64,000 nucleotides of DNA from Barnesiella sp. An55 (GTDB lineage: Bacteria; Bacteroidota; Bacteroidia; Bacteroidales; Barnesiellaceae). The first letter of the stretch is position 1; each line of letters starts with the position of its first letter. The notes below the pieces were generated by a model. It saw only the letters and a list, made by a program, of their open reading frames with translations, was not told the origin of the DNA and did no database searches. The translations under genes and the position numbers were made by a program. Where the stretch lies: NCBI RefSeq assembly GCF_002161555.1, contig NZ_NFHZ01000007.1, positions 1-64,000 of the forward strand, written 5' to 3'. Of this stretch, positions 7,495-10,576 are shown one piece after another.

Positions 7495-7672
7495 CCGATA
7501 CTCTTTTTCTGCATATACATTAGCGTACAAAGGTATCACTTTTACCGCAATATTCATATGCGGCAGGGGCAAAATCGTTGCTCGTGCCACAAAATAAATA
7601 TCACCCGACCGGGACAAAACAGGAAGAGTCGTGAAAAAAGAGCGATAAATTACCATTCTCGAAAAAAAGTAT

Positions 7673-7680
7673 TACTTTTG
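7673..7680 (+). promoter_or_regulatory. Bacteroidota -7 promoter element (TACTTTTG)
   Basis: A perfect TAnnTTTG element lies just upstream of the cobalamin aptamer, so the transcript would start at about 7685. The -33 region is not a good match (ATTA at about 7649). Confidence 0.55.
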
Positions 7681-7682
7681 CA

Positions 7683-7855
7683 GACGATTGGTTCCAACAG
7701 GCCCTTCGGGTCTCGAGGATTAAAAGGGAATCGGGTGAAAATCCCGGACAGTCCCGCTGCTGTGAAGCTCTACCAACCACTCGAATTCTACACGCCACTG
7801 ATCCATGTATCGGGAAGGCATCGAGTGGGGAGTCAGTCAGAAGACCTGCCATCGA
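7683..7855 (+). promoter_or_regulatory. Cobalamin riboswitch
   Basis: This stretch contains the conserved core of the B12 aptamer in order: AAAAGGGAATCGGGTGAAAA (7721-7740), the CAGTCCCGCTGCTGTGA block, GCCACTG (7794-7800), GGGAAGGC (7812-7819) and AGTCAGAAGACCTGCC (7835-7850). It would repress or terminate expression of the downstream genes when adenosylcobalamin or a related corrinoid is plentiful. The expression platform must lie between 7855 and the gene at 8119. That leader contains several short hairpins (for example CCGAC pairing with GTCGG near 8014-8026) but I could not settle the switching structure. Confidence 0.93.
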
Positions 7856-8118
7856 TTTTTATTTTTAATCGAGCCCGCGGACAGGACGGTTAAATGTACA
7901 AGGTTAAACGCTTTATAATTTTTGTAGGTTTTTCAGGCCGTTCATAACTCCTCACGGAGTATGAAGCTTCTTGTATCTGCCCAGGCATCCATCGACACGT
8001 CCCCGACTTTGGGTCGGAAGAGTGACGAGAGGATTTACATTGCCTGCCCCTCCCAAGTCTCTGGCTCACAAGTTATCAACAATAGAGCTGAACCATAAAC
8101 ATTTACATAAAGAATAAG

Positions 8119-9580
8119 ATGAAGACAGTAAGAAAAACTTGGGGGGGGGGTGCTGCTGGTTGCAGTAGCTCTGGTAATGGGCAGTTGCTCGAAAGAGAAG
8201 GATGAACCTATTCCTGCTCCGAAATTTGAATGGACGACAGATATCGCGACCGATATGCCGGTATTTGTCGTTCCCGATACCAAAGTCGAGATTGGCTATG
8301 CCGCCGAATATGTGCAATCGGTTACAACAGGATCCTTGCCCAACGGGTGGAACGTAAAGGTGAATGAAGGAACTCAAAAGATTGAAATCTCAGCAACAGC
8401 CGACGCCGAAACCAAAGCCACACTGGAGGTTACGATAACGGGTAACGACGGGAAGCCTCTCTCGCAGCATGTGGAACTTTATTGCTTGAATACGTTTGAC
8501 GATCCGGCCGGAGTCTTCGTTCTTAACGAAGGAAACATGACCACCGAGAACGGTTCGCTCACCTGGATTTCGCCCGAGGGGTATGTGCTGGACGATGCCT
8601 ACAAAACGGTCAATGGCTCCGAGCTGGGTAATGTGGCTCAAGACATGGCCATCTATGACGGACAGATTTATATCATCTCGCAAAATGGCAACAAGAACCC
8701 GAACGGCACAACGTTCGAGAACGACGGCATGCTGGTGATTGCCGATGCCCATACCTTGAAACGGACGGCCGCTTTCACCAACGACGACCTCCAAGGGCTC
8801 GACTGGCCTACACATATCGCAGTACTCGATGCCCAGCATCTATACATTCGCGACAACGCCGGCATCTATCGCTTCGACCCGACGACCAAGACGCTGACCT
8901 TCATAACCGGCTCCGACGGTGCTCCCAAAAGCCGTTTCGTCACAATGGGAGGTAAAGCCTATACCTTCAAGTCGGGCTATTCGAGCAAGCTTCTCGAGAT
9001 TTCGACCGAGAGCGATGCCGTGACTTCAATTTCGTTCCCTTACAGCATCCCCTGCATGATCAACCGGGTGCTGGGTATTCAAGGTGCCGATGATGGCCGC
9101 ATGTGGGTAATGACCTCTACTTCGACTACTGTCGGCTCGGGACAGACGGCCATCGGGAAATTCAACCTCTCGGACCGCTCGATGATTCAGCGGCGAATCG
9201 GGGTTGAGCCGGGTGTAGGCTCATCGGGCGAGGCTTTTGCCGCCTATGGCAACAACCTCTACTATGCCGATGGCGTGACCGTCTATTGCCTGCCCTTCGA
9301 CGAAAGCGAAGACCTCAAAGCCGATTCGGGTCTCGAGGCCGAGCAATGGATGGTAGATCTTTCGGCTTTGGACAAGAACGCCGGGCTGCGCTACAACGGG
9401 CTGGGAGTACATCCCACATCGGGACGTGTCTATATCAATACCATCAAATCGTATGCCCTCTTTGGACAGAATCAGATCTGGGGCTTCGACTTCGCCACCA
9501 GTACCAAGGCTCCGGCCGTCAAATATGAGAATTATACCAATTTCCCTGCCGGCTTCTATTTCCCTGCCGGTCGTCAATAA
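8119..9580 (+). CDS. BtuG-like DUF5074 beta-propeller lipoprotein, out of frame through a G10 tract
   Basis: A surface-type lipoprotein with an Ig-like N-terminal part (about residues 30-130) and a C-terminal DUF5074/YncE-like beta-propeller; repeats start at a VFVLNEGN motif and an NGSLTWISPEG segment. Close relatives include BtuG, which binds cobalamin at the cell surface in Bacteroides (established for that family). ATG 8119 starts MKTVRKTW and then enters a run of ten G (8141-8150). As written, this start hits a stop at 8167. Removing one G, or adding two, joins it to the long frame and gives a complete lipoprotein signal with lipobox MGSC at residue 23, followed by acidic residues. The long frame otherwise has only a GTG at 8150 with half a signal peptide. 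So the gene is either phase-variable and OFF, or the base count is wrong. The riboswitch controls it. Confidence 0.8.
8141..8150 (+). repeat. Homopolymeric G10 tract in a signal-peptide coding region
   Basis: Ten consecutive G lie 22 bases after the ATG at 8119. Tract lengths divisible by three (9 or 12) restore the lipoprotein frame; ten, as read here, does not. Runs of this kind are known slipped-strand phase-variation switches in other bacteria. They are also sites of sequencing error. Confidence 0.9.
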
Positions 9581-9601: not shown

Positions 9602-10576
9602 ATGAAAATGAAATGGATAACAGCCCTCCTGGTGGGGGCCATGATGGTGGCGAGCGGATGCACGTCCGATCCGGAAGGTATCAATAACCCGGGTGGGAAC
9701 TCGGGTGGAGGCCAGTCGCAACCCCTCGGCGGATATGCGGCACCCGACGGTGTGCTCATTCTCAACCAGGGGGCTCCGCGCCTGGAAAACGGATCGGTGA
9801 CCTGGATTTCGCCCGAGGGTATAGTTGAACAAAATGTCTATCGCACGGTCAACGGTTCGGCGTGCGGAAACACGTCGCAAGACCTCTACCTCTGCGGCAA
9901 CAAGATTTACATCATGAGCAACAATAACGAAGTCCCCGATTTGGGAAACAGCGAGCCGGGCGATGGCTCGATTGTCATCGTCGATGCCGAGACCTTCCGT
10001 CGTGAAAAAGCGTTTCAATTCTCAGACTTGAAATTCCACAAGCCCGAAGGCTCGCTCGAAGTGGTCGATTCACTATCGCTGGCTACTCCGTTTGAGAATA
10101 TGGCCGTCATCGACGAGCACAATCTCTTCTTTGCCGACGGACAGGGTATGTTCCGCCTCGACACCGAAACAGGTAAGTTGAACCTCGTCGAAGGGGGATA
10201 TCACTTCGGTAACCAGGGAAACACCATTGAGACCGTCGTAGCCACACGGGGCATGACTGTCATAGGCGACCACCTCTACTTTGCGGCCGGCACCCTGACC
10301 GTAAGCCGCATCTCGCTCAAGACCTGGAAAATCGAAGAGTATATCCACGTGGAAAACGATGCTCCGCAAGCCCGGTACCTCACTTGCAACGTCGTGGCCG
10401 ATTCGAAGAAGAATCTGCTTTATGTATCGGTATCGAACGACTTGAACGAAGCTCGAACCTCCGACGGGAATATTCTGGTCTATAACTGCAGCGGCGACGA
10501 ACCGCAACTGGTCATGAACATCGAGAACAAGGCCAGCTACCCGATAAACATCTATCCAATGTCGAAATTCTATTGA
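9602..10576 (+). CDS. BtuG-like DUF5074 beta-propeller lipoprotein
   Basis: A 324-residue lipoprotein: signal peptide with lipobox VASGC (Cys20), then a Gly/Asn-rich linker (about residues 28-45) and a DUF5074 propeller beginning GVLILNQGAP and NGSVTWISPEG. It is paralogous to the preceding gene (shared VNGS, SLTWISPEG-like, NTSQDL/NVAQDM and MAVIDEHNLF-like repeats), but lacks the Ig-like N-terminal domain. It starts 21 bases after the preceding stop and ends before a strong terminator, so it is the second and last gene of the B12-riboswitch transcript. By family it is expected at the cell surface binding a corrinoid or handing it to a TonB-dependent transporter; the partner BtuB is not in this window. 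The reading frame is intact, unlike its neighbour. Confidence 0.82.
   Translation: MKMKWITALLVGAMMVASGCTSDPEGINNPGGNSGGGQSQPLGGYAAPDGVLILNQGAPRLENGSVTWISPEGIVEQNVYRTVNGSACGNTSQDLYLCGNKIYIMSNNNEVPDLGNSEPGDGSIVIVDAETFRREKAFQFSDLKFHKPEGSLEVVDSLSLATPFENMAVIDEHNLFFADGQGMFRLDTETGKLNLVEGGYHFGNQGNTIETVVATRGMTVIGDHLYFAAGTLTVSRISLKTWKIEEYIHVENDAPQARYLTCNVVADSKKNLLYVSVSNDLNEARTSDGNILVYNCSGDEPQLVMNIENKASYPINIYPMSKFY

Follow-up and report, generated by a model that had tools for sequence, protein, structure and literature searches.

In a Barnesiella draft genome (3.03 Mb, 49 contigs), a gene encoding a BtuG-like lipoprotein carries a tract of ten Gs within its signal-peptide codons, which puts it out of frame by a single G. 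The explanation we prefer, which we hold at about even confidence, is that this tract is young, lineage-specific and prone to slippage, and that it puts OFF, by one G, an accessory gene that follows a cobalamin riboswitch. The window, i.e. the whole stretch of DNA analysed, comprised bases 1–64,000 of contig C47 (148 kb).

The G10 tract and its reading frames

The features of the locus, all on the + strand, were as follows.

7671–7867, +: cobalamin riboswitch aptamer (RF00174, 95.4 bits); the An22 orthologue also has one upstream (L031 5520–5715)
8119–8205, +: short frame with ten Gs, 28 aa and then TGA, from frame computation
8141–8150, +: G10 tract, one G above an in-frame length
8150–9580, +: 476-codon frame for a DUF5074 BtuG-like lipoprotein, N-terminal beta domain and then beta propeller; the frame is open from 8132
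9602–10576, +: second DUF5074 lipoprotein-type gene of the operon, 324 aa, lacking 97 codons found in An22
10265–10282, +: junction of a 291-nt in-frame deletion, at a motif found twice in An22, 291 nt apart

From an ATG at 8119–8121 the order is ATGAAGACAGTAAGAAAAACTT, ten Gs, TGCTGCTGG; the start codon and the tract reported in the first-pass annotation were both seen in the assembly. The early stop that it placed at 8167 in this frame was misassigned: the frame ends at TGA 8203–8205, and a TAG at 8166–8168 belongs to the frame with 8 or 11 Gs. The rest of that observation (tract, frames and lipobox) stood. The 476-codon frame, described there as lacking a normal start, is indeed in another phase, opens after TAA 8129–8131 and has GTG 8150 as its first listed start. 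When the tract length was varied in silico, 7, 8, 10, 11 and 13 Gs were out of frame and 6, 9 and 12 Gs were in frame, yielding lipoproteins of 485, 486 and 487 aa with an MGSC, as had been claimed for 9 and 12 Gs. The in-frame product reads MKTVRKTWG...VLLVAVALVMGSC, and the predicted lipobox MGSC, followed by SKEKDE, appears only when the tract is in frame. The length of the tract thus sets the frame of a conserved gene.

G-run lengths in the window (both strands) drop by a factor of 0.198 per extra G. Extrapolation to genome size gave about 24, 4.8 and 0.95 expected runs of at least 8, 9 and 10 Gs, and 16, 5 and 2 were observed. As these counts are near the extrapolation, a G10 somewhere in the genome is ordinary (0.02 were expected in this 64 kb), and the notable part of the tract is its place 22 nt after the start codon. 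The other G10 of the genome (L089 3981–3990, contig C22) overlaps no open frame of at least 120 aa.

Slippage is frequent in poly-G tracts of roughly 8 or longer; a G10 is inherently prone to error and could turn the gene on and off. The assembled clone would have the gene OFF, translation from 8119 stopping after 28 aa, and loss of one G during replication, or gain of two, would restore the lipoprotein. As either change restores the frame, ON and OFF cells should interconvert, giving a mixed population on top of riboswitch control; mutability, reversibility and mixture are what we infer from the tract.

Gene product, operon and relatives

The window protein was assigned to DUF5074 (PF16819, E 1.8e-46). 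Its AlphaFold2 model (mean pLDDT 90.6) shows a beta domain at the N terminus followed by a propeller, and the best PDB match by Foldseek was the BtuG2 entry 8bn0 (E 2.0e-17, TM-score by target length 0.70). Sixteen of the best 17 matches were chains of BtuG-type entries or BtuBG complexes, including 3dsm, counted as BtuG-type because it serves as the BtuG fold in the relevant part of PMC6143338. A seven-bladed beta-propeller is thus predicted from the model match rather than from individually counted blades. The first-pass suggestion of a BtuG-like product agrees with this independent check, in which a confident model matches BtuG structures. The remaining match was 4r5o, BT1487, which is named BtuK2 in PMC12751083 and, in the part of that paper dealing with it, does not bind cobalamin; B12 binding is therefore not proved by the fold alone.

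Sequence similarity to BtuG was weak (E 8.5e-7; 2.4e-10 with a profile of a 34-sequence alignment). A 390-aa protein on contig C3 of the same genome, directly after a TonB-dependent receptor barrel, matched chains 8ptf/8ptd at E 2.4e-46, and an intact BtuG copy of this type, with about the same profile span, was found in 9/9 Barnesiella genomes. A close orthologue of the window gene was present in one of the eight other Barnesiella genomes (An22, 88% identity). The weak match, the genus-wide BtuG at C3 and the single orthologue together indicate, at the level of sequence, that the window gene is an accessory relative of the genus-wide BtuG. Since the latter is intact elsewhere, losing the accessory copy may be cheap.

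The riboswitch ends 251 nt before ATG 8119, and the riboswitch proposed in the first pass was independently confirmed by the RF00174 match. A riboswitch was present in 8/8 relatives scanned, 0.3 to 4.4 kb before the match. The neighbourhood comprised a DUF4199 gene on the opposite strand, the riboswitch, the two DUF5074 genes and an endonuclease I gene; btuB was looked for beside the window gene, and no receptor directly adjoined it. For the second gene, a motif search located the site in five relatives (L031, L032, L033, L051 and L059), each of which has the segment that follows the repeated motif. The 291-nt deletion points to a relaxation of constraint on this lineage's operon; as it keeps the frame, the gene may still yield a shorter protein.

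The body of the window gene appears, from its substitution pattern, to be under purifying selection. Compared with An22 over 476 codons, dN was 0.064, dS 0.888 and dN/dS 0.072 by NG86, and dN/dS was 0.049 by YN00; no stop or frameshift was found within these codons. When the 56 amino-acid differences from An22 were polarised with five close outgroups, 23 fell on the window branch, 21 on that of An22 and 12 were ties. All 32 outgroups gave 31, 20 and 5, respectively, leaning towards faster change on the window branch in this comparison. Departures at columns at least 90% conserved numbered four in each gene. A conserved body makes the OFF state look recent, reversible or an error.

Barnesiella sp. 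An22 (G003) has the nearest relative of the window gene. A protein search of 393 Bacteroidales genomes gave five matches at E 1e-60, those above 45% identity being confined to the window's own genome (G000) and An22, and no relative was found in the viral contigs searched. At the tract site An22 has ATGATGAAAGTAAGAAAGATG TGG GGC GTG CTG CTG, with no tract. The first-pass annotation had taken relatives without the tract, and with a signal peptide coded by mixed codons, as evidence against a switch, and this is the state of An22 (TGGGGCGTG). Among 58 named relatives scanned from 60 nt before the frame opening to 150 nt past the match start, the longest G run was six (L057 only). A narrower scan, from 90 nt ahead of the match start to 60 nt beyond it and with an in-frame ATG within reach in 41/58, found no run of at least six Gs in the 58. 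These relatives, all of other species, therefore do not keep the tract at differing lengths.

A conserved tract or switch was rejected, as An22 and the 58 relatives have no G run above six; judged from these sequences, the absence speaks against a switch of long standing and not against a young one. Using An22 as a guide, the tract may have begun when GGC, flanked by TGG and GTG, changed synonymously to GGG, giving G6 at the An22 length, and slippage may then have extended it to 9 and 10. In a Candidatus Tidjanibacter MAG, an orthologue with 76% identity (L051 5975–7425) was read by eye as having a start put out of frame at an A run, plus other lesions.

Competing explanations

A sequencing or assembly error, the true tract being nine Gs and the gene ordinary and ON, is an unlikely account that fits several facts: no G run in this draft is longer than ten (two reach that length), one G fewer gives a complete lipoprotein, and the gene body looks functional by dN/dS and the polarised differences. 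Against it, three other coding runs in the assembly keep frame, namely a G9 in L092 (inside a DUF6340 match), a G8 in L094 (inside a beta-barrel match) and a G8 in L101 (a continuous 1320-aa ORF, ahead of a SprA_N match); picked from 14 loci (L092–L105) for ORFs running well past the tract, they serve as a plausibility check, not a rate. A true G9 would also remain a slippage-prone tract. Ordinary decay is just as doubtful. It would make the tract one of several null or damaging changes, not reversibly used, in an accessory B12 operon that is being lost, in keeping with the 291 nt missing from the second gene, the close orthologue in just one other Barnesiella genome, the intact BtuG elsewhere in the genome and the lesions of the Tidjanibacter orthologue. 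The 476 uninterrupted codons with a dN/dS of 0.07, the equal number of conserved-column departures here and in An22, and the frame kept by the second gene's deletion all speak against it.

A maintained, selected phase switch, in which population B12-capture states are a bet-hedging trait, would draw on the location of the tract, the frame arithmetic, the conservation of the gene and the precedents in the genus described below. As the 58 relatives examined lack a long tract, BtuG is intact elsewhere and the partner gene is damaged, we consider it quite improbable. Very improbable indeed is continued expression of the out-of-frame gene, either with initiation at GTG 8150 or by slippage of RNA polymerase or the ribosome along the G run. 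Homopolymers are known to promote slippage, and GTG 8150 does open the 476-codon frame, but the product initiated there begins MLLVAVALVMGSC and lacks the positively charged n-region of a signal peptide. Returning to the young, slippage-prone tract, the phase switch proposed in the first pass is plausible: the out-of-frame G10 in signal-peptide codons, the riboswitch, the conserved body and the genus precedents favour it, and the absence of the tract from An22 and the 58 relatives counts against it, as do the ordinary abundance of G runs, the truncated sister gene and the 31 to 20 split of differences with all outgroups.

Known systems and other poly-G tracts at gene starts

Among systems known to work, the closest parallel is hpuA of Neisseria meningitidis (HpuAB haemoglobin receptor). 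HpuA is a lipoprotein partner of a TonB-dependent receptor, and the account of it in PMC3786947 includes switching via a poly-G tract within the reading frame, ON at every third length (4, 7, 10, etc.); C-to-G substitutions are seen at the tract edge. If its tract slips, the window gene would work like hpuA, having a poly-G inside the reading frame and ON lengths every three Gs. The two differ in ligand, protein family and phylum; moreover, hpuA tract lengths vary among isolates and its predicted states are reported as supported in that account, whereas the window gene is seen in one genome. The window gene resembles Bacteroides BtuG in its DUF5074 protein, predicted lipobox (if in frame), upstream riboswitch and BtuG-type fold matches, and differs in its extra N-terminal beta domain, the lack of a directly adjoining btuB and the weak sequence similarity (E 8.5e-7).

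In the relevant sections of two reviews (PMC11868660, PMC12632263), phase variation in gut Bacteroidales is described through DNA inversion. The window gene would share stochastic surface variation with those systems, but the mechanism proposed here is homopolymer slippage. A frameshift at a run of four Cs in a B. fragilis O-acetyltransferase of a polysaccharide locus, for which PMC3090145 raises slippage as a possibility in the part concerned, is likewise a Bacteroidales frameshift at a homopolymer; it differs in affecting an acetyltransferase, not a vitamin receptor. With slippage already raised in print, the idea for the acyltransferases described below is not without precedent. Among the titles listed from the open-licence PMC literature, none was on slipped-strand switching in Barnesiella or of a Bacteroidales B12 receptor.

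In nine Barnesiella genomes, 55 runs of at least nine Gs were found, and 8/55 followed an ATG by no more than 30 nt, that ATG opening an ORF of 300 aa or longer with one of three tract lengths. The control was 725 of 23,100 positions from the same loci (3.1%; binomial 0.0003 at this strict setting, which was chosen among several tried). Looser settings gave 0.08 (30 nt, 150 aa) and 0.024 (90 nt, 300 aa), and at 90 nt and 150 aa there was no excess (9/55 vs 15.4% in the control). The eight runs were those of L116 (without a Pfam match), L129, L131 (two), L134, L135, L166 and the window gene, and the five acyltransferases among them carry the excess.

Six PF01757 (Acyl_transf_3) genes open with G9–10: two in L131 and one each in L133, L134, L135 (G006) and L166 (G005). 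In all of these except L133, for which no fitting ATG was found, the tract lies 16–29 nt after the ATG. The second copy of L131 was ON, and its first copy, L134, L135 and L166 were OFF by one G; a homologue of L135 in G008 (73% identity) had no tract. As far as their sequences tell, these Barnesiella genes are likely to be slippage-switched. In another Bacteroidales genome (G356), a lipoprotein-like family (L262, L263, L264 and L265) carried G8–9 tracts in signal-peptide codons in 4/4 copies with a start in the assembly, a fifth copy being cut by a contig end; as assembled, 4/4 were OFF. The acyltransferase and G356 loci look like slippage loci and appear to be better candidates than the window gene, because their tracts recur in paralogues or orthologues. 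The many OFF copies among them are a caution about assembly error.

It is a tentative idea, less probable than not, that gut Bacteroidales have poly-G contingency loci of a kind that has drawn little notice, sited in the signal peptides or first codons of surface genes and comprising the window BtuG-like gene, five acyltransferases in two Barnesiella genomes and the G356 family with G8–9. Beside the DNA inversions known for the order, such a class would bring switching by replication slippage, which at this locus would act on vitamin capture controlled by a riboswitch. If the slippage switch is real, single cells would differ in B12-uptake state, and such genes would be missed by inversion finders and listed as broken in consensus assemblies. 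If the locus is decaying instead, it is a record of one Barnesiella lineage losing an additional B12-type receptor.

An AT-then-G9 motif general across the order was rejected, the matches listed from 393 genomes giving 50 places vs about 48 reversed when counted by eye; G006 stood out with 5 vs 0 reversed. OFF copies with one G too many were the window gene, the first copy of L131, L134, L135, L166, L262 (the same as L248), L263 and L264, the exception being L265; they are few, and the paralogues are not independent. In L236 (G055), a G10 lies 18–25 nt after ATGs at the start of a secreted-looking ORF of about 500 aa without a Pfam match. L129 (G006) encodes a CHU_C (type IX secretion signal) protein and has a G10 74 nt downstream of its ATG, in frame in the assembly.
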